A DNA stretch of 38,445 bases from a virus. The stretch is taken from the IMG/VR virus record IMGVR_UViG_3300036817_000309, positions 1 through 38,445 of that record. The stretch is one strand, 5' to 3'. A program made the translations under genes and the position numbers. Below are positions 1,094 through 26,490 of the stretch, piece after piece (position 1 is the first letter of the stretch; each line of letters opens with the position of its first letter). The notes under the pieces are model-generated. The model saw nothing but the letters and a program-made list of their open reading frames with translations, had not been told where the DNA came from and searched no databases.

Positions 1094-1311
1094 TCAAACC
1101 GATCGCTATTGCCTGACGATGCGGGTAGCCCTCGTGATGCAGCCTCCTGATGTTCGCCGAGGCGTTGCCCTTGTTCTTCGGCATGGCCGTTGCCTTTCTG
1201 CGCTGCCAGCTGCGCCGTGATCTTGGCGATCAGCGGAATCTTGGAAATCACCGGAGCCGCCACCGCTGAGATGATGTAGCTCCATTCTGCTTCATCCAGA
1301 TCGATTTTCAT
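1090..1311 (-). CDS. hypothetical protein downstream of tail fibre
   Basis: A 73-residue protein. Its ATG (1311) overlaps the fibre stop codon by one base (TGATG), with gaggag about nine bases upstream, which supports this start over the longer reading frame. Residues 10-45 form an amphipathic to hydrophobic helix (SAVAAPVISKIPLIAKITAQLA); the tail is polar. It is too short for a typical fibre chaperone, but its position right after a large fibre gene fits a small fibre-assembly or attachment accessory. Function unknown. Confidence 0.6.
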   Translation of the reverse strand: MKIDLDEAEWSYIISAVAAPVISKIPLIAKITAQLAAQKGNGHAEEQGQRLGEHQEAASRGLPASSGNSDRFE

Positions 1312-4300
1312 CAGTAGTTCTCCTCGATGACGATGACGCCGGTTTGCCCAGGGAGTCCGGGTAAAATCGTATAAGCGACCGTTGCGCCACCGGCACCACC
1401 AGCTCCGACCGTCACAGTCGTAGTGGTTGGATTGGCGACCAGAAACTCGACGCTTTCGCCGGCTCCTCCGGAACCGCCACCGCCAATAAGACCGCCGGCG
1501 GCAGCAGCGGCGCCGCCGGGACCACCCGCGCCGGCCGCTGGCGCACTGCCCCACATGCTGGCGCCATTATAGGGTTGGTTGCTGATCGCGTAGGGACTAT
1601 CCTGGTTAAGACCACCGCCGCCGCTGCCGCCGTTCACTCGGATCACCAGCGTCCCGGTGCCGTTGGTGCCGCCGAGCCCGCCACTGCCGGCGCCGCCGCC
1701 AGCGGCGCCTGCCGGACTGCCGCCGCCGACGCCACCGTTCGCTGTCCAACTACCGAACGACGTGATGCCGCCCGTGCCACCGTTAGCGCCGGCACCGCCG
1801 CCGCCGCCGCCGCCGGTCATTCGGACCCTGATCCACCGCACCGCGCTCGACGTCGGCGTATAGGTGAATGTGCCTGGGGTGGCGAATATCTGAATCGTCG
1901 GCATCGGCGGAAATAAATCTTCGATCGGAACCGGTGCCGGAGCTGCGCTGCCGCCCGAGATGTTGCCGAGCACTGTGCCATCCGGGATCGGCTGCGGAGG
2001 CGGATTGCTCGGCACCCAGTCGTAGCCATCCCAGACGTAGAGCCGATCGTTCGCGGTGTTGAACCATAGATCGCCGGTATCGGGGGCCAACGGCGGCATT
2101 ACACCGACTGCGACCGGCGTCGGAGGCCCCGGCGGTCCTTCATCGCCCTGCGGCCCCTGGATGCCCTGGGGGATCGTGAAATTGAACACCGCCGCCGAAG
2201 ATGTCCCGACGTTGGAGACCGCGGCCGAGCTGCCCGGCGCGCCGGTGGTGGTCGAACCGACAGCGACGGTGGCTGCCAGTCCCGGCGGGCCGGTGTCGCC
2301 GGTGTAACCGCGAGGGCCAGGCGGGCCTTCGATGCCCTGCGGCCCGGGCGGACCCGGCACACCGACGAGCGATCCGATATTGAGCCAATCGGTGCCGTCC
2401 CAGACCCAGGCGTCGTTAGTGACGGTGTCCAGATAGACGTCGCCGATCTCTGCGGACGGCGGCAACTCGCTGGGGTCGGTGATGGTGCCGACGATGCGGA
2501 TGCCTTCGCCGGGCGGGCCGCGCTCGCCTTGCTCGCCGCGCTCGCCGCGCTCGCCAGTCGGACCGACCACGCGGCCCATGTCGACCCAGCGGAAGCCGTC
2601 CCAGATGAACGCGGTGCCGAACGGCTCTTCCCGTGTCACCCACAGATCACCGATCTCGTTCCCGAAGTATGGCAGGTCCCGGTAGTCGGTGACTTCTCCC
2701 TTGGCACGCAGCGGCGGTCCGGGGTCGCCCTTCTCGCCGCGGTAGCCGCGCGGGCCACGCTCGCCGGGCGGACCGCGCAGGTAGCCGATCGCGGACCAGT
2801 GGCATTCGGGTTCCTCGGGCTCGGGCGGGATCGGAGCGATGCGGCCGGAGCGGCCATGGTGGTCGTGTTCGCGTTCGTGCTCGCAGGTCCACACGTAGCC
2901 GATGCCGGAATCCTCGGCCATGCGGACGTCGCCTTCCTCGTTGCCGTGCTCGGGGAGGTCCTCCCAGCGCGGCACCGGGGACTTGAACCGGAACGAGGCC
3001 CCCATCGGCCCCCGCGGTCCAGGCGGTCCTGGCGGGCCTTCCCGGGGCAGATTCTTCTCAATCGCGGACCGGACGAACTCGGTCGTGGCAATGCGATCGC
3101 TGGCATCCCCCGCGGGCGGGGTCGGCGCGCGCGGATCGCCGATGAAATGCGGTGAATGGATGGGCGCGCCACCGGCGGCAATGATGTCATTGAGCAATAG
3201 CTCGACGTGGCCGCGGCGTCCGTTGAAGGTCACCACGGTGTCGGAGATCCAGTCCCGGATTTCCTCGAGATGCTCGCAGAACCAATGCGTATTCGGGATC
3301 GAGAAGTCGCACGACTCGAACGGCGGGGTCGGCGTCGACGGGCGGCCCTCGAACTCGGGGCTGAACAGCGGTGCTCCGCCCGCTTCGATGATGTCGTTCA
3401 GTTCGAGGATGATGTCGCCGTGGCGGCCATTGAAAGACCGCACGAGGTTTTGGAAATGGCGGTGCTCGAAATGCTCGTGCACCCACTCGGTGGTGGCCAG
3501 GCGATGACTGACGTCGTGGCGTGGCGGGTTGGGCGCGGTCGGCGTGCCGGTGAACTGCGGCGAGTGCAGCGGCGCTCCGCCGGCATCCAGAATATCGTCC
3601 AGGCGCAGGATGACGTGCCCCATACGGCCGTTGAATGTCGCGACGCCGGCAATGTTCTGACTGATGAAATGCTTGACGAATGCTGTGGTTGCGATGCTCG
3701 CGTCATCCGAGATCGGCGGCGGAGTCGGAGCAGTCGGGTGCCCGGTGAAATTGGGATCGTGGATGGGGGCCCCACCGACGTCGAGGATGTCGTCCAAGCG
3801 CAGCTCGACATGACCATGACGCCCGTTCCAGCTAATGACGCCCTCGTCGAGTGCCCACAGACGTATCCACTCGGTGGTGGCGAGTCGGGTCGAGTCATCG
3901 AACGGCGGCGGGGTCGGCGCGCGCGGATCGCCGATGAATTCCGGGTCGTGGATGGGCGCACCACCAGCGTCGGTGATGTCGTCGAGCCTGAGCTCGACGT
4001 GGCCGCGGCGTCCGTTGAAACTGTCGACGACGTCGGTCAGGCCCTCGGCGACCGCCGCGGCGATTGCGGCATTCACCCACTGCGTGTTGGGTATCCGGTC
4101 ACTGTCGTTGCCGAATGGCGGTGCCGGCGTGTGCGGAATGCCGGTGAAGTCCGGAGAGTCGATCGGAGCGCCGCCTGCCTCAAGTATGTCTGATAGGCGC
4201 AGCGTAACCACGCCGTGGCGGCCGTTGAAGGAGTGGACGGTGTCGTCCTCCCACAGGTCATGAAGGCGGTCGTAAATGGCGTCGGCGTAGCGCTTGGTGG

Positions 4301-4808
4301 CGACTTCGAGCGGCTCATGGGGATCACGGGCAACCTGCACGGTTTCATAGGGGACGAGCACCATGCCGTCGGGCAGGACCTGAAACTGCCCCCCGCGCGG
4401 CAGGAAGTCGTCGACGCCGATAGTGGGCAGCAGGCCGCCAGCAGGTCCCGGCGGATAGATCGCCAGCTGAAATACGCCCGACGGCTGATCAAGGCCCAGA
4501 AGAGCGGCAGCACCGGACGCTAGATAGCGCGGTCCGAATGCACTGTTGTAGACATTAAACCAGTAGTAGCCGGCGGACATCAGGATGGCGATGACGCCGC
4601 TGTTCTCGGCATCGCCGGGCAGCGGAATGCCGACACCGAGGTCGGCCCCCTGCCAGTCCAAGGCGCCCGTTACAAGCCCGTAGGAAGTCGAGAACTGGTA
4701 GGGACCTCCCAGACCATTGGCCTGGAGCAGAACCGCGTCAGTGGGCGCCGCAGCGGCCTTCAGCGGAAATTCACTTATTTGGCGTACGGAGAGTACAAAA
4801 TCATCCAT
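1311..4808 (-). CDS. tail fibre with FNGR repeats, collagen-like stalk and Gly-rich tip
   Basis: An 1165-residue receptor-binding fibre candidate. Residues 1-190 form an N-terminal attachment region ending in a DPHEPLEVATKRYAD motif typical of the junction to fibre repeats. Six tandem repeats of about 66 residues follow (roughly 193-590; DNA 4232-3040), each with FNGRxGHVxLxLDDI, AGGAPIxxPxFxGxPxAPTPP and RIATTEWV, as in many phage fibres. Residues about 590-970 alternate collagen-like Gly-X-Y blocks with modules containing GNEIGD and VWDG-x-W. The last 150 residues are glycine-rich (GGGGGGGAGANGG) and end in GVIVIEENY, like glycine-rich adhesin tips. It is in the leftward operon, apart from the other virion genes. 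Collagen-like trimerisation and tip-mediated host recognition are inferred from these families. Confidence 0.9.
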   Translation of the reverse strand: MDDFVLSVRQISEFPLKAAAAPTDAVLLQANGLGGPYQFSTSYGLVTGALDWQGADLGVGIPLPGDAENSGVIAILMSAGYYWFNVYNSAFGPRYLASGAAALLGLDQPSGVFQLAIYPPGPAGGLLPTIGVDDFLPRGGQFQVLPDGMVLVPYETVQVARDPHEPLEVATKRYADAIYDRLHDLWEDDTVHSFNGRHGVVTLRLSDILEAGGAPIDSPDFTGIPHTPAPPFGNDSDRIPNTQWVNAAIAAAVAEGLTDVVDSFNGRRGHVELRLDDITDAGGAPIHDPEFIGDPRAPTPPPFDDSTRLATTEWIRLWALDEGVISWNGRHGHVELRLDDILDVGGAPIHDPNFTGHPTAPTPPPISDDASIATTAFVKHFISQNIAGVATFNGRMGHVILRLDDILDAGGAPLHSPQFTGTPTAPNPPRHDVSHRLATTEWVHEHFEHRHFQNLVRSFNGRHGDIILELNDIIEAGGAPLFSPEFEGRPSTPTPPFESCDFSIPNTHWFCEHLEEIRDWISDTVVTFNGRRGHVELLLNDIIAAGGAPIHSPHFIGDPRAPTPPAGDASDRIATTEFVRSAIEKNLPREGPPGPPGPRGPMGASFRFKSPVPRWEDLPEHGNEEGDVRMAEDSGIGYVWTCEHEREHDHHGRSGRIAPIPPEPEEPECHWSAIGYLRGPPGERGPRGYRGEKGDPGPPLRAKGEVTDYRDLPYFGNEIGDLWVTREEPFGTAFIWDGFRWVDMGRVVGPTGERGERGEQGERGPPGEGIRIVGTITDPSELPPSAEIGDVYLDTVTNDAWVWDGTDWLNIGSLVGVPGPPGPQGIEGPPGPRGYTGDTGPPGLAATVAVGSTTTGAPGSSAAVSNVGTSSAAVFNFTIPQGIQGPQGDEGPPGPPTPVAVGVMPPLAPDTGDLWFNTANDRLYVWDGYDWVPSNPPPQPIPDGTVLGNISGGSAAPAPVPIEDLFPPMPTIQIFATPGTFTYTPTSSAVRWIRVRMTGGGGGGGAGANGGTGGITSFGSWTANGGVGGGSPAGAAGGGAGSGGLGGTNGTGTLVIRVNGGSGGGGLNQDSPYAISNQPYNGASMWGSAPAAGAGGPGGAAAAAGGLIGGGGSGGAGESVEFLVANPTTTTVTVGAGGAGGATVAYTILPGLPGQTGVIVIEENY

Positions 4809-18024: not shown

Positions 18025-19041
18025 ATGCCACTGCTCGGCTCTGGACTCATTCCCTCTGGACCGATCGGTCTTGAATTAGAGGCCACGGTTCGCCGTGTTT
18101 TCGCCCAAATGGTTGTGGTGTTAATTTACCGCCAGAACCCGCTTTTGGCACTATTGTTGAGAAACGCAATCCGGGCGAGCGGCGGCGTCAGCCCCTATAC
18201 CCAGCCGGTCCAGACCGGCCAGTACGTGCAGTCGTCTTGGATTGGGCCCGCAGGCCAGTTCAACATTCCACAGGACGTCGCCGCTACGGTGAATGCGGAG
18301 TTCAATCTATGCGCTTTAGCAACTCCGGTGACATCTTTCGGTTTGGAGCAGCTGGTCACTCAGGACGCGATCGCGGTCGCCTCCAGGCTGATGCTCAAGC
18401 TCAACGACCTCAAGAACTCGGCGCTGATGGCGCTGGCGGAGGCGCTGTTCACGACCAACGGCGGCAACGTCCTGAGGATGTTCGGGCTGTTGGACGCGTA
18501 CGGCAATGCGATCACTGCGCCCGTATACGGCGGGCTATCGCGCGAGGTCTATCCAATGTGGCAGGGCCTCGTCGTCAATAACGCGGGATCACGGCTGACG
18601 CGGGTGGGGTTCATTCCGCTCCTGTTGCAGGCCGCCAAGAATGCCGGCGGCGAGGCGATCGATTTCGTCGTGATGTCCGTGGAGGACTGGACGACCTTGA
18701 TGACCGATTTCATCAGCGTCGAGCGCTACAACAACGATCCCAGCACGCGATGGGGCAAGGACGACCCCGTCAACTCTGGGTTCCGCGGCCTTCTTTTGGG
18801 CGACACTCCGATATTTTTTGACCTCAATTGCCCTGTTGGCACCGCATTTTTCTTCAATTCCAAATATATAACACTAGTTATTCACGAAGATGCCAACTTC
18901 GCGTGGACCGGGTGGTACTCGACGATTCCACAAGGCCAGATTGCATCCGTGGGGTTAACTTTGACGGCGTTGAATCTTGTCGCCTCGAAACCGTCGACCG
19001 GAGCCATCGTCAACGGACTTATCGGCGGTCAGGCGTTCTGA
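18025..19041 (+). CDS. major capsid protein
   Basis: A 338-residue capsid protein with the best ribosome site in the window (taaggaggt), as expected for the most abundant virion protein. It is rich in hydrophobic and small residues with few charges, begins with a helix (LELEATVRRVFAQMVVVLIY), and has the HK97-like sequence of elements (SSWIGPAGQFNIP, then QDAIAVASRLMLKLNDLKNS, then VMSVEDWTTLMTDFISVERY, GLLLGDTPIFFDLNCP). The 3' 87 bases are also read on the other strand by an endonuclease gene. Assembly into the icosahedral shell is inferred from context. Confidence 0.85.
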   Translation: MPLLGSGLIPSGPIGLELEATVRRVFAQMVVVLIYRQNPLLALLLRNAIRASGGVSPYTQPVQTGQYVQSSWIGPAGQFNIPQDVAATVNAEFNLCALATPVTSFGLEQLVTQDAIAVASRLMLKLNDLKNSALMALAEALFTTNGGNVLRMFGLLDAYGNAITAPVYGGLSREVYPMWQGLVVNNAGSRLTRVGFIPLLLQAAKNAGGEAIDFVVMSVEDWTTLMTDFISVERYNNDPSTRWGKDDPVNSGFRGLLLGDTPIFFDLNCPVGTAFFFNSKYITLVIHEDANFAWTGWYSTIPQGQIASVGLTLTALNLVASKPSTGAIVNGLIGGQAF

Positions 19042-19578
19042 GGAAGCCCGGTGGAATTTGCCATGAATCTCTTTGGAGGCTTTTACGAACGCATCGTGAG
19101 CTTCCTGCTCGGTGGCAAAAAGGCCGAGGTAAGCCTTTTTGCCATCCTTGATGATATGGCTGAACCACATAGGCGACTTGGTCGACGCTCGATAAGCGCC
19201 TTTAAGCTTGTCCGGACGCACAATTCTGTTCGCTCCCTGCTGCGATCTGTTGGCCTCTCTCAAGTTGGACCACCGATTATCAAGCGTGTTCTGATTCGCA
19301 TGGTCCACTTCGGGATCAGGCCAAGCGCCGGTCATCCACAGCCACGCCAGTCGGTGCCCGTAGTGCTTCTCGTAAACACCAGGCGCGACCTTGATGCCGA
19401 TCACCACCATGGGATCTTCGCCGTGGCGGCCGCGAACTGCGATCGTGCCTGCAGGCCGGTCAAGGCGCCGCTTGGGGCCACGTTTGATCCACCAAAGTTT
19501 TCCGTCTTCGGGGTCATAGCGCATCTCTTCGCGCAGCATGTCAGCAGTGAGCTGCGACGGCTTGGCTCTTTTGGGCAT
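18955..19578 (-). CDS. HNH homing endonuclease with AP2 DNA-binding domain
   Basis: A 207-residue protein antisense to the late operon, with a ggggag ribosome site. Residues 75-120 form the HNH motif (HRLAWLWMTGAWPDPEVDHA, then NTLDNRWSNLREANRSQQGA), and residues 127-180 form an AP2 domain (KGAYRASTKSPMWFSHIIKD, then LGLFATEQEAHDAFVKASKE). This domain order is typical of free-standing homing endonucleases. The last 28 residues are encoded antisense to the end of the major capsid gene. It follows the 138-residue gene by three bases, so the two form one antisense cassette. Confidence 0.88.
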   Translation of the reverse strand: MPKRAKPSQLTADMLREEMRYDPEDGKLWWIKRGPKRRLDRPAGTIAVRGRHGEDPMVVIGIKVAPGVYEKHYGHRLAWLWMTGAWPDPEVDHANQNTLDNRWSNLREANRSQQGANRIVRPDKLKGAYRASTKSPMWFSHIIKDGKKAYLGLFATEQEAHDAFVKASKEIHGKFHRASSERLTADKSVDDGSGRRFRGDKIQRRQS

Positions 19579-19581
19579 GAC

Positions 19582-19998
19582 TCAGGTGCTCCCCGAGTCT
19601 TCCCAATCCGATCCGTGCACCCAGGCAAGCGCCATCATCTTGCCTTGAGTGATGCCCCACTCAACCTGATCGCCTGGACCAAGGAATTTCAGCCCGTATC
19701 TGTCTACGAGCGCACGTGCCGGATCGCAGCCGGGCTGCTCTCGCGGGCATTTATTGGGATCTCCGGTCGGACAGCGGGACATGTGGCGATTCCACCAGAC
19801 CTTGTCCCAAAGCCTCCGGTATTCCTCACTGATGGCCTTGTCGTTGCGGCGCATGATCATCGCCCACGGCTTGCCATCGTTCATTTCGTCGTCGTCAGGA
19901 ATCCACTCAACGTAGTCGCCATTGGCGTCGTACCCGACGGGATGCCCGTTGGGACCGGTTTCGTTTTCGACAATTTTGGGGTATTTGGAATCAGCCAT
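19582..19998 (-). CDS. hypothetical protein in antisense cassette
   Basis: A 138-residue protein with ribosome site aggag, upstream of the HNH gene in one leftward unit. The N-terminus has GPNGHPVGYDANGDYVEWIP, the middle is Trp-rich and charged (RRLWDKVWWNRHM), and a cysteine cluster follows (RCPTGDPNKCPREQPGCDP). Three closely spaced cysteines could bind metal. Not recognised. It may be a cargo gene carried with the homing endonuclease. Confidence 0.6.
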   Translation of the reverse strand: MADSKYPKIVENETGPNGHPVGYDANGDYVEWIPDDDEMNDGKPWAMIMRRNDKAISEEYRRLWDKVWWNRHMSRCPTGDPNKCPREQPGCDPARALVDRYGLKFLGPGDQVEWGITQGKMMALAWVHGSDWEDSGST

Positions 19999-20036
19999 CT
20001 CATTGCTCCTGTAAAGCAGTGGTTGGTCAGGTGCGG

Positions 20037-20057
20037 CAGACGGCTCGAACCCGTCTG
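20037..20057. promoter_or_regulatory. 7-bp hairpin ahead of the connector gene
   Basis: CAGACGG (20037-20043), 7-base loop, CCGTCTG (20051-20057). It lies between the divergent antisense cassette (start 19998) and the adaptor gene (20109). Rightward it is followed by gtatttgtatcatg, including a TATCAT box at 20072-20077 that could be a -10. It may be an operator or a leader hairpin for either side. Confidence 0.35.
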
Positions 20058-20108
20058 TCGTACCGTATTTGTATCATGCTCTCCGGCCTTGGCAAGCAGG
20101 TAAACGCC

Positions 20109-20801
20109 ATGCTCGCCCGCTACATCACAGACACGCAGACACTACTTAACGATGCAGGCGGCCAGTTCTTCACCATGCCGCAGGTGATAAATTTTGTTAA
20201 CAGATCGCGCCGTCGCATTGCATACGCGTCCGGGTGTCTTCGAGTCCTTCCTATGGGCACACGAACGCACGCCAAGCAGGAGGTATACCCTTTTTCTGAC
20301 TGGCGCTCTCTCGTCCAGCGGGCCGCCCCAGGGTGCGACACTATCCTCGCGGTACGTTCACTGGCGGTGGCGATCGGAGTCGGTGGTTGGAAGCCCACTT
20401 GGCGGCGGATACCGTGGACCGATTTCCAAGCTCGATTCAGGATTTTCAACGGCACGTTCTACGGGACGATTTCGGAGCCGGGATGGTACGCGCAGTACGG
20501 AGTGGGCGAACTCGGCGCTCTTTACCTCGCCCCCATTCCTGCCCAAGGCAATCCCATGGAGGTCGACTGCACGTGCGTCCCGCTCAACCTTCTGACCGAC
20601 AATGACCCCGAGCCGATCCCCCAGCCGTGGCAGGATGCGGTAAGCTATTGGGCCGCCGTGCTGCTTTTGATCCAGCAGCAGCGCGCTCAGGACGCCCAGG
20701 CCATGGCACAACTTTTCAACAGTGATCTTCCGTTTTGCGCGGCTGTGGTGTGCCCGCAGATGATCCAGACCCCGTACGGGGCCGCTCTGCGCAGTGCATA
20801 G
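20109..20801 (+). CDS. head-tail adaptor (tail tubular protein A-like)
   Basis: A 230-residue protein. The start at 20109 is chosen because the family begins with this kind of helix (YITDTQTLLNDAGGQFFTMP, VINFVNRSRRRIA) and caggt lies upstream. A helical bundle with a beta insertion (ARFRIFNGTFYGTISEPGWY) and a C-terminal helix (WQDAVSYWAAVLLLIQQQRA) match podovirus adaptor proteins that sit under the portal. Next to it on the genome are the nozzle and capsid genes. Twelve copies would extend the portal channel. Confidence 0.75.
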   Translation: MLARYITDTQTLLNDAGGQFFTMPQVINFVNRSRRRIAYASGCLRVLPMGTRTHAKQEVYPFSDWRSLVQRAAPGCDTILAVRSLAVAIGVGGWKPTWRRIPWTDFQARFRIFNGTFYGTISEPGWYAQYGVGELGALYLAPIPAQGNPMEVDCTCVPLNLLTDNDPEPIPQPWQDAVSYWAAVLLLIQQQRAQDAQAMAQLFNSDLPFCAAVVCPQMIQTPYGAALRSA

Positions 20802-20804
20802 CAA

Positions 20805-21206
20805 ATGGGCAACGTCGTTCACTTGCGCGATAACGCACCCCTCAGTAACGCCGAGCGCCAGCGCCGTTACCGCGAGCGCCAGCGTAACGCCAAGCGTAAC
20901 GAGGACCGTAACGGCGACCGTAACGAACCCGACGTAACGCGTAACGGGAACCGTAACGACGAGACCGTAACGCGTAACGACGAGACCGTAACGGGGGGCG
21001 TAACGGCGTACCTGGGCGTTACCGTAACGACGAAGCAGATGATTGAAATCGTTGCGAAATTCGAGATCGGTTACGTTACGCAGGCGGACGTGGCATTGGC
21101 GGCAAGGATCATCATGGCGTTCGTGCACACCGTAACGCCGGACGGCTCCGTTACGCTTCCGAGCCACGTAACGGGCAGCGTTACGGACGACGCCCAGGAA
21201 GCGTAA
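20805..21206 (+). CDS. low-complexity RN/VT protein encoded by CGTAACG repeats
   Basis: A 133-residue protein three bases after the adaptor stop. Residues 14-27 are a basic leader (SNAERQRRYRERQRNAK type) common in phage DNA-binding proteins. Residues 25-70 are runs of Arg-Asn and Thr-Val-Thr dictated by the underlying DNA heptamer. A helical segment follows (TTKQMIEIVAKFEIGYVTQA, then ALAARIIMAFVHTV). Because the heptamers change reading frame and run past the stop codon, the protein sequence looks secondary to the DNA repeat, though a repeat-binding function is possible. No ribosome site is evident. Confidence 0.55.
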   Translation: MGNVVHLRDNAPLSNAERQRRYRERQRNAKRNEDRNGDRNEPDVTRNGNRNDETVTRNDETVTGGVTAYLGVTVTTKQMIEIVAKFEIGYVTQADVALAARIIMAFVHTVTPDGSVTLPSHVTGSVTDDAQEA

Positions 21207-21219
21207 CGGGGGCGTAACG
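20883..21219. repeat. array of 19 CGTAACG heptamers (16 direct, 3 inverted)
   Basis: Perfect copies start at 20883, 20895, 20907, 20919, 20933, 20940, 20952, 20966, 20973, 20987, 20999, 21023, 21074(inv), 21131, 21149(inv), 21167, 21179(inv), 21202 and 21213. Near copies lie at 20844, 20865, 21017 and 21069. The usual spacing is 12 or 14, with abutting pairs (7). Copies fall in all three phases of the gene, one contains its stop codon and one lies beyond it. About 0.04 copies would be expected by chance. I found none elsewhere in the window. Confidence 0.95.
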
Positions 21220-21284: not shown

Positions 21285-22031
21285 ATGGAACCTTTACATC
21301 GGGCTATGGAGCTTGCTGATCGCATGTACGACGACCACCGAGAGTTGCGGGATCACATCCGCACCGCGTGGGACTGGGGTGATCGCCGTTGGGGCCGCGA
21401 GTGGCGCGACGGCTGGGAGGGCCCCGGCTACGTGTGGAACCGCGGCGAGTGGGAGCGCGAGCGCGGCGGCCGGCTGCGCGGCAGCCCGGAGCGCGGCGAG
21501 TGGGTCGACCGCGATGACCGCCGCGACCGGGATGACCGCCGCGAGGGCCGCGAGGACGGCCGGCGCTGGTGGGGCGAGATGGACCGGGCGCACCGCAACG
21601 CGATCGAGCTGCAGCGCTCGGTGGCGGAGCTGCAGCGTCCGGGCCGGCGGCCGGAGGAGATGCGCGAGCGCTGGATGGACTTCGACCGGCGGGTGGGTGG
21701 CTTCCGCGACCACCTCATTGGGATGCGCCGCGATATCGACCCGATGTACCACTCCGACATCGACGGCATGATGCGCTACGCCGACGACTGGGGCCGCCGC
21801 ATGGGCGAGTGGCGCGAGCGCCCCCACGAGGAATCACGCGAGATCTTCCAGCGCATGCACCACGAGATCGCCGAGCTCAGCCGGCAGATCGAGGTCGTGA
21901 AACGGCGCATGGAGGAGCGCCGCGAGGAACTGCGCCGCGATACCGACCGTGACCGCCGGGAACTGCGCCGCGAGGAGCGCGAGGACTTCGGCCGGCGTGA
22001 TCGCGACGACCGCAGGCGGGATCGCTACTGA
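21285..22031 (+). CDS. highly charged Arg/Asp/Glu-rich helical protein
   Basis: A 248-residue protein with a strong ggagga ribosome site. Around half the residues are Arg, Asp or Glu, with many Trp (RTAWDWGDRRWGREWRDGWE). Blocks of RDRDD repeats (about 75-95 and 220-248) flank a long coiled-coil-like middle (EIAELSRQIEVVKRRMEERR). The Arg/Asp tail resembles the end of the protein at 10111. It lies between the adaptor and nozzle genes, so it is probably made late; a DNA-binding internal or assembly protein is possible. No family recognised. Confidence 0.65.
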   Translation: MEPLHRAMELADRMYDDHRELRDHIRTAWDWGDRRWGREWRDGWEGPGYVWNRGEWERERGGRLRGSPERGEWVDRDDRRDRDDRREGREDGRRWWGEMDRAHRNAIELQRSVAELQRPGRRPEEMRERWMDFDRRVGGFRDHLIGMRRDIDPMYHSDIDGMMRYADDWGRRMGEWRERPHEESREIFQRMHHEIAELSRQIEVVKRRMEERREELRRDTDRDRRELRREEREDFGRRDRDDRRRDRY

Positions 22032-22042
22032 GTTGAATCAGA

Positions 22043-23698
22043 GTGCCGATACAATCAACGAACCCGCCCGGCGTAATGATGCTGGAACAGTGGGCCGGGC
22101 TGAATCAGCTCGTCCCGCGGCACTCGATCGACGATCAGGAGCTATGGTGGAACGAAAACCTTTTTCCCATCGGGCCGGGCAGCCTGAGATCCTGCTGGGG
22201 CCATGGTCCAGTGCTATACACGGCGCCGGCCGGGACTACGATACTGCGTATCTTCTTCGGCTTTTACGGGAACAAGACGCCGCCGCTCGACTGGCCGCCT
22301 CCCGGCAGAAATGGCTGGATGTTTCTCTCCGACGGTACCGTCGACGAGGTCGATCTTGATACCCTGCAGGTCACCCATATCGGCCAGATCTGGGAGCCGC
22401 ACGCGCCGCAATATTGGGCCTCGGCCAAGGTGTGGCGGCCGCGGTGGATCGGCAATACGCCAGGCGAGGTCGGCGGGGTGCTGTTTGGCAGCCCCCAGGG
22501 CCTCTACGCCTGGGACGGCACCAATCTGTACAGCCCCGGCGATCCGGCCCCCGACTGGCTGACCAACGCCGACATTTCCGGGCTGGGGCCGTTCTACATG
22601 CCGGTCGGGCTGCCGGGCATCTTCACCATGGAGGTCTACCAGCAGCGGCTGTTCGTGGCCGGCAAGGACGTGATTGCCTACTCGGCGCCGCAGAACGGGG
22701 CGGATTTCTCGGCCTCGGGCGGCGGTGGCGCGTTCGGCTACTTCGGCGACAAGCTGGTGTACAGCTACATGGATCTGGCGGCCTCGGCGGGTTATCTGTT
22801 CTGCTTCGGCGACTCGTCGACCGACATGATCTCGAACGTCCAGCTGACCGGCGAGGGCACCGTCGCGAGCCCTTACTCAACGGTGTTCAATTATCAGAAT
22901 GTTGACCCCCAGATTGGCCACGCGTTTCCTCGTCCTGTCGGTCATTGGGGCCGTTATTTTGTCATGGGCAACGGGGCTCCCCTCCATCCACCTGATACCG
23001 ATCCTCTTGCTCATAGGGGTTCTGTATATCTTATGTTCGGTGGTGATGCTCAAGTGATCGGCGAGAAGATCACCCGGCTCTATACGACTCTGCAGAACGA
23101 CGAATTCCAGCCGACCATCTGCCCGGCGACCATCTTCGGGTTCCGGGTCATGCTGCTCAACGGCAGTTTCTTGGATCCGTTCGGCGTGCGGCGGCCGCTC
23201 TTGCTGATGTGGCACGGCAACCTGCGCGGCCGCGAAGTGTGGTCGATCGCGAGCCAAAACCTGCACCTGACGCATATCGCGAGCTACGAGCAGGACTCGG
23301 TCATCACGCCGTACGGCACCGATGGGACCAACCTGTATCAGCTGTTTGCCAACCCGGATCCGACCTTGCCGAAGCGGTTCGCGACCAAGGCCTACAAGGG
23401 ATCGGGGATCCAGGGGCTGACGATCAAAAATTGGAAACGGCTGTATCTGGAGGTAACCGACTACTCGGGTCAGGGAGCATCGTTCAATGGCCGCATCACG
23501 ACGACCGGCGGCGGCATCCCCAACGGCACGCAGGATGTGTCGTTTGAACTTGTGCCCGGACAGGTGTATAAGTTGGACCCGCAGATGATATCAGGCCAAG
23601 GACTTTCGGGCGAGCTTGATATGCTCAGTTACTCGCCCGACTTTACCATTGAACGCCTGTTCGTCGGTGCCGAGGAACGCACGCTTTTCGGAGCATAG
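22043..23698 (+). CDS. tail nozzle / tail tubular protein B-like beta-propeller
   Basis: A 551-residue protein from GTG at 22043, rich in beta strands with recurring Trp/Gly blades (GGVLFGSPQGLYAWDGTNLY, then FVAGKDVIAYSAPQNGADFS, then GYLFCFGDSSTDMISNVQLT). Opening residues (PPGVMMLEQWAGLNQLVPRH) and order after the adaptor fit nozzle or packaged-DNA-stabilisation proteins of podoviruses, which are six-bladed propellers. It would close and extend the short tail. No clear ribosome site precedes the GTG; an ATG pair at 22076 is an alternative start. Confidence 0.75.
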   Translation: MPIQSTNPPGVMMLEQWAGLNQLVPRHSIDDQELWWNENLFPIGPGSLRSCWGHGPVLYTAPAGTTILRIFFGFYGNKTPPLDWPPPGRNGWMFLSDGTVDEVDLDTLQVTHIGQIWEPHAPQYWASAKVWRPRWIGNTPGEVGGVLFGSPQGLYAWDGTNLYSPGDPAPDWLTNADISGLGPFYMPVGLPGIFTMEVYQQRLFVAGKDVIAYSAPQNGADFSASGGGGAFGYFGDKLVYSYMDLAASAGYLFCFGDSSTDMISNVQLTGEGTVASPYSTVFNYQNVDPQIGHAFPRPVGHWGRYFVMGNGAPLHPPDTDPLAHRGSVYLMFGGDAQVIGEKITRLYTTLQNDEFQPTICPATIFGFRVMLLNGSFLDPFGVRRPLLLMWHGNLRGREVWSIASQNLHLTHIASYEQDSVITPYGTDGTNLYQLFANPDPTLPKRFATKAYKGSGIQGLTIKNWKRLYLEVTDYSGQGASFNGRITTTGGGIPNGTQDVSFELVPGQVYKLDPQMISGQGLSGELDMLSYSPDFTIERLFVGAEERTLFGA

Positions 23699-26080: not shown

Positions 26081-26490
26081 GGCACATCCGGTCGCCGGAG
26101 GATGACGACTGGCTGCGGTCGCTTCTGAAACGGCGTTACGGCGACAATTACGACAGCGTCAACACCGAGGCGTGGTTTCACCACGTTTGTTTGACCAACC
26201 CGCTGATCTACTATGCCATCCGTACCGACAATGCGTTCCTGATGTGCGGACTGCGGTGCTGCCCGTGGACGCCCACCGAATACGAGGTGGTCATCAACCT
26301 CGCGGTCGCCGAGGAGGGCCATGCCCATGAGCTGGTCAAGTTGTTCCGCGAGTCGATCGCATGGGGCAAGCGCCGCAACGCCACTACCTGGCTGTTCTAT
26401 TCCGACATCGACCGTGACTTTTCGCCATTGATGCGGCGTCTCGGCGCCCGCGAACAGCCGCGGTTCACCTTGCGGCTGAAGGAGGACTGA
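26074..26490 (+). CDS. GNAT-like acetyltransferase-fold protein, start uncertain
   Basis: About 138 residues from the first plausible position. The frame has no ATG, GTG or TTG near the previous stop; CTG at 26074 or ATT at 26071 are the nearest candidates, and the next upstream ATG lies deep in the neighbour. The body begins VRHIRSPEDDDWLRSLLKRR and has beta strands and helices in GNAT order (YYAIRTDNAFLMCGLRC, then EYEVVINLAVAEEGHAHELV, then TWLFYSDIDRDFSPLMRRLG). The usual acetyl-CoA R/Q-x-x-G-x-G/A loop is not clear. It may be a structural or modifying protein with this fold. Confidence 0.55.
   Translation: MVRHIRSPEDDDWLRSLLKRRYGDNYDSVNTEAWFHHVCLTNPLIYYAIRTDNAFLMCGLRCCPWTPTEYEVVINLAVAEEGHAHELVKLFRESIAWGKRRNATTWLFYSDIDRDFSPLMRRLGAREQPRFTLRLKED

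Follow-up and report, generated by a model that had tools for sequence, protein, structure and literature searches.

A CGTWACG iteron array of the replication-initiator type in a viral genome is probably bound by the small protein whose gene contains it

Which function can be assigned to a cluster of short, identical DNA sites that is packed into a small gene among the structural genes of a phage? The question is raised by the window, i.e. the whole 38,445-nt stretch of viral DNA analysed here, for which the initial annotation had reported 19 perfect CGTAACG heptamers placed without regard to the reading frame. An exact-match search agrees with this count: 20 matches to CGTAACG/CGTTACG occur in the window, 19 of them in the array (Table 1; 16 on the plus and three on the minus strand) and one at 26134. 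Under a first-order Markov model 0.030 copies are expected in 337 bp, and the Poisson probability of at least 19 is about 1e-46. The independence from the reading frame was confirmed as well, because seven copies are in phase 0 and ten in phase 2 of the open reading frame (ORF) for a 133-aa protein, the heptamer at 21202 spans its stop codon and that at 21213 lies beyond the gene. As in lambda gene O, short repeats are thus found inside a reading frame far above chance and regardless of codon phase. The annotated numbers of direct and inverted copies are correct, however, the distinction itself does not hold, since CGTTACG is the reverse complement of CGTAACG and the element is a 7-bp pseudo-palindrome, CGTWACG. 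The spacings are, in order, 12, 12, 12, 14, 7, 12, 14, 7, 14, 12, 24, 51, 57, 18, 18, 12, 23 and 11. Spacers and flanks are not repeated, and four near-copies with a GTNAC core lie nearby (AGTAACG at 20844, CGTTACC at 20865 and 21017, GGTTACG at 21069). The array is the sole iteron-like cluster in the 38-kb window. The GC skew of the window gave no clear origin signal, and no promoter or terminator patterns were found near the gene.

Table 1. Features of the array locus and its surroundings (positions in the window).
Feature	Position	Strand	Basis or remark
SU10-type adaptor gene, left border of the insertion spot	20019..20801	+	PF24175
133-aa ORF made up of a basic helix, a middle encoded by the array and a small C-terminal tail	20805..21206	+	non-array codons dN/dS 0.29 vs L371
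Two degenerate copies (AGTAACG, CGTTACC) overlapping the helix codons	20844..20871	.	
Helix-motif codons N15-A-E-R-Q-R-R-Y-R-E-R-Q-R27, proposed CGTWACG reader	20847..20885	+	motif; helical in models, one of them of low confidence
Array of 19 CGTWACG sites	20883..21219	.	exact matches
C-terminal part with two helices of low confidence; conserved in L371	21030..21125	+	
ORF of 248 aa within the insertion spot, poorly conserved	21285..22031	+	
Conserved 551-aa gene, right border of the insertion spot	22043..23698	+	3-9 bp from adaptor in eight relatives

The 133-aa protein consists of the canonical helix NAERQRRYRERQR, the array-encoded part and a small tail, hence a canonical RQxx[YFW]R helix is encoded directly upstream of a CGTWACG array. 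Its structure model is of low confidence, with the motif being helical. Pfam gave no match for the protein and PHROGs just a weak one, and neither a winged helix nor a recognisable loader-binding domain was found in it, so that it does not qualify as an initiator. A helicase loader or helicase gene does not adjoin the array, the neighbours being the SU10-type adaptor gene and conserved genes of the structural region; the phage itself encodes a DUF5906 primase-helicase. Searches in viral contigs, phage records and 289 genomes from the class to which a Bradyrhizobium belongs returned no relatives, their reach being limited by the compositionally odd query. The idea that its C-terminal hairpin corresponds to the N-terminal hairpin of short initiators gained no support from a comparison of the two.

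More information came from other phages. A scan of viral contigs identified at least 120 stretches with clustered CGTAACG (three or more copies). Among the matches listed, ORFs over such clusters matched the PHROG replication-initiation families 9474 (23 members), 2509 and 10469 (15 each), 3992 (13) and 1408 (12), and the Pfam families Phage_rep_org_N, DUF1376 and DnaT. Mixed orientation was observed, again among the matches listed, for 70 of 136 CGTAACG clusters compared with 8 of 134 clusters of the control heptamer GCAATGC, and mixed codon phases for 97 of 136 compared with 59 of 134, while the raw cluster counts are uninformative, both totals being lower bounds. In these arrays the exact heptamer was read 497 times and any one-base variant at most 25 times, a sharpness that is partly biased because the arrays were found through exact matches; no flank is fixed. 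The arrays usually encode a VT/RN/LR-rich linker straight after a basic stretch, for example NAERQRRYRERKR, and the motif RQxx[YFWH]R adjoins 45 of the 76 multi-phase arrays with at least four sites; in the DUF1376 initiators L010 and L012, CGTWACG follows a different basic stretch. The single plausible motif in 1.43 Mb of sequence not selected for arrays or initiators was that of L371, a relative of the window, which carries the array. Taken together, most of the recurrent CGTWACG arrays lie within replication-initiator genes, where they occupy the disordered linker that directly follows a short basic helix AERQxx[YFW]RxR. Neither these iterons nor this helix were found described in the literature searched, mostly outside subscription journals. 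The initiators of Rac (YdaU) and of the Lactococcus phages TP901-1 and Tuc2009 have no CGTWACG cluster and carry other linker repeats instead.

A sizeable minority of arrays lies outside recognisable initiators. Dense arrays of 8-12 sites in such positions were noted in the viral contigs L030, L049, L093 and L094. Heptamer density is unequal across genomes, hence the equal density in host and phage genomes that the initial annotation had named as an argument against its reading was not seen. Clusters in bacterial genome contigs turned out to be mostly coding repeats, chance occurrences or tandem CGTTACGC-type repeats. Short tandem repeats of the latter type were present in varied contexts in the bacterial chromosomes L267, L321, L330 and L356, apparently unrelated to the phage arrays.

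The relation between helix and repeat was analysed in initiators of the MAGDWIKMR family, which were fetched by their N-terminal domain only and dereplicated to 81 proteins. At least three CGTWACG sites occur in the genes of 38 of the 40 proteins with RQxx[YFW]R and in none of the 41 without it (Fisher 4e-21, a value inflated by the shared ancestry of the sequences); after clustering of the N-terminal domain at 50% identity the ratio is 6/7 versus 0/8 (p 0.0014). Other helices have other partners: KQxxYR pairs with CGTTACC, R[AM]xx[YF]R with CGTSACG and AKRRA with TGCGGAC. Salmonella phage epsilon15 and Pseudomonas phage phiPSA1 belong to this last group. The relation has exceptions, as the ERMRRYR and ERNRRYR proteins (L048, L072, L076) also pair with CGTWACG, and some RQxxYR genes mix CGTWACG with CGTSACG. 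A strict rule according to which Gln5 sets the central A/T was rejected, because CGTWACG is likewise found with helices that have Met5 or Asn5. In an AF2 model of the initiator L466 the motif forms a helix, which is preceded by an N-terminal domain modelled with confidence and followed by the disordered linker that the array encodes. The conserved R, Q, aromatic residue and R share one helix face. A PDB fold search with the initiator model gave nothing significant. The short basic helix RQxx[YFW]R probably reads CGTWACG, and the suggestion that the window protein binds its own array through a basic leader is backed by this co-variation. As proof of contact the correlation is weakened, because an adjoining helix and array move together by recombination. 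A search for the initiator family in genomes of the gammaproteobacterial class yielded too few initiators to be useful.

TGCGGAC forms a second iteron class in its own right, usually with 3-6 copies and an AKRRA(Q/N)(D/E)xxRKR helix in epsilon15-type initiators (L504, L598, L599 and about 25 related loci). L684, from the same initiator family, combines a helix VERCQEWREK with eight CGACGCG copies and might represent a further helix-repeat pair.

Similar pairings exist among Phage_rep_org_N initiators. Two to four CGTWACG sites are present in the genes for the RQQRYR proteins of phi11, StB12, StB20 and a PinkBerry phage, with four in the linker of phi11 gp15, and phi11-like genes carry 1-4 sites. 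The repeat GTCACGTGAC accompanies the helix RKQKQR in Staphylococcus genes whose N-terminal domain shares about 96% identity with that of phi11, and it also occurs in an Oenococcus phage with about 53% identity in this domain and the helix RKQRQR. In four Streptococcus initiators and one from Listeria the helix RVxx[YH]R goes along with NGTAACG repeats, and CGTWACG is missing. PhiEf11, with the helix RQAKYR, departs in part from the pattern, as its repeats are mostly NGTAACG and CGTWACG occurs once. In 80alpha, the sister phage of phi11, ORF20 and ORF21 are enough for autonomous replication, and the origin has been placed inside the initiator gene ORF20 (PMC5499656). The 80alpha record annotates the origin in the linker part of this gene, where the repeats differ and CGTWACG is absent. 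By analogy, an origin role of the linker arrays in initiator genes of this kind is likely.

The window protein can be compared with several known systems. Lambda O likewise has in-frame repeats in the linker between its DNA-binding and C-terminal parts, for which self-binding has been proposed (PMC3349717 and general knowledge), however, its repeat differs and the window protein has neither an initiator domain nor a neighbouring P-type loader gene. Phi11 gp15 shares the helix class and the CGTWACG sites in the linker, but gp15 and 80alpha ORF20 are full-length initiators with a winged-helix domain. Epsilon15 and phiPSA1 share the MAGDWIKMR type of N-terminal domain with many CGTWACG initiators and have iterons inside the gene, but with an AKRRA... 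helix and the TGCGGAC repeat. As an analogy from general knowledge, the basic region of eukaryotic bZIP proteins (GCN4 type) resembles the motif in its conserved positions i, i+1, i+4 and i+5 of one helix and its 7-bp pseudo-palindromic site. Even the N-x7-R spacing is present from N15 to R23, with N being replaced in some relatives. In contrast to bZIP proteins, there is no leucine zipper, as heptad leucines are missing after residue 28 of the window protein and the L466 model has a disordered linker there, and there is no evidence of homology.

How the array came to its position can be approached from related contigs. In eight relatives 3-9 bp separate the adaptor gene from the 551-aa gene, and in others the interval measures 28-1701 bp, which marks this site as a variable insertion spot. 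The same protein together with 22 sites is found in L371 and L106, the only relatives and possibly one sequence. The array occurs in one of 28 whole contigs of adaptor-containing relatives, some of which are fragments, namely that of L371; it is missing from 27 relatives that retain the surrounding structural genes. These data indicate that helix and array of the window form a free-standing, recently acquired cassette between two structural genes. The cassette is confined to one close lineage, and the array therefore does not belong to the core sites for packaging or replication. Codons outside the heptamers show a dN/dS of 0.29 and a synonymous divergence of 0.48 between window and L371, whereas synonymous divergence is 0.21 in array codons. 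Twelve sites are common to both, the others having been gained or lost. Hence, DNA sites and protein both appear to be under selection, with the estimates coming from this single pair and small counts. Selection at the DNA level had been proposed in the initial annotation, and relatives that keep the protein and lose the heptamers, which would have contradicted it, were not encountered.

Collectively, these findings favour with good probability an origin-type iteron array that is bound by the helix of its own 133-aa protein, consistent with the early suggestion of a protein-binding array of the replication-site type. It would be of the kind that many phages carry inside the initiator gene, as in lambda gene O. 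In the initiators, the RQxx[YFW]R helix follows a winged-helix domain and precedes the disordered array-encoded linker, so that the protein would bind within its own gene and the helicase loader would be brought there. CGTWACG would be read by the basic helix encoded just upstream, presumably in a dimeric manner. The window harbours a minimal form (helix, array and small tail), gained as a cassette in the variable spot, with the 133-aa protein most likely coating its own array. The phage need not use the array as origin, because the protein is devoid of a winged helix and a loader domain and the phage has its own DUF5906 primase-helicase; relatives without the array evidently replicate. A role as accessory origin is only tentatively proposed, and an autoregulatory or other nucleoprotein function appears possible at a lower level of expectation, followed at a slightly lower level by interference with the initiators of other phages.

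Some alternatives ascribe another task to the locus. It is unlikely, for example, that array and 133-aa mini-initiator start the replication of this phage as its true origin: the array is the sole iteron-like cluster in 38 kb and homologous arrays are located where initiators and known origins are, but 27 relatives do without it, and winged helix, nearby loader partner and GC-skew signal are all missing. Also rather unlikely is an interference cassette, in which the array, alone or together with the protein, would sequester or divert CGTWACG-reading initiators of co-infecting phages to the benefit of its carrier. Such initiators are widespread among phages, the cassette is a free-standing acquired insert without an initiator domain of its own, and plasmid-borne lambda iterons together with oop have been reported to exclude rep-lambda phages (PMC3349717). 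However, the non-array codons are under purifying selection, although a conserved protein would be dispensable for a pure decoy, and the cassette is located among late structural genes.

The sites themselves might also have nothing to do with initiators. The initial annotation had considered a packaging or partition site and a host-factor decoy. Dense, helically spaced palindromic sites in a region of structural genes would fit packaging, partition or binding of a host protein, but this is highly improbable, because relatives with the same structural module are without the array, the terminase gene does not adjoin it, and 3-copy clusters are rare in the one bacterial family tested (6 of 296 genomes), the arrays tracking phage initiators instead. 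Similarly, a self-spreading or slippage-born repeat without function, its correlation with the helix resulting from co-inheritance of adjoining sequence, is very unlikely. Sites were indeed gained and lost between window and L371, and helix and array adjoin, but helices of this class are followed by the identical 7-mer in AT-rich and in GC-rich phages and in N-terminal contexts that are unrelated, array codons show reduced synonymous change, and spacers and flanks are not repeated.

Returning to the self-bound iteron array, origins inside initiator genes are already known. The co-variation points to a helix of about 12 residues, not to the winged-helix domain, as the repeat reader and links helix residues to the repeat sequence. 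If true, origin specificity, and hence the replication compatibility of co-resident phages, might be predictable from sequence. The free-standing copy in an insertion spot of structural genes suggests that, in addition, the module is exchanged as an accessory cassette. A doubtful extension is that phage initiators across phyla owe their origin specificity to a portable module of helix and iterons whose residue-to-base code can be read, and that the stripped-down copy of the window acts in trans on the replication of other phages.

Two further observations concern other parts of the window. About 1.1 kb between the major capsid gene and the adaptor (19041-20108) is missing in L106, where the flanks are contiguous; an HNH/AP2-like homing-endonuclease ORF (18955-19578, minus strand) belongs to this stretch. 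Finally, repeated modules of the form FNGRxGHVxLxLxDI, together with collagen-like GPP repeats, are encoded by a tail-fibre-like gene at positions 1311-4808 (minus strand).
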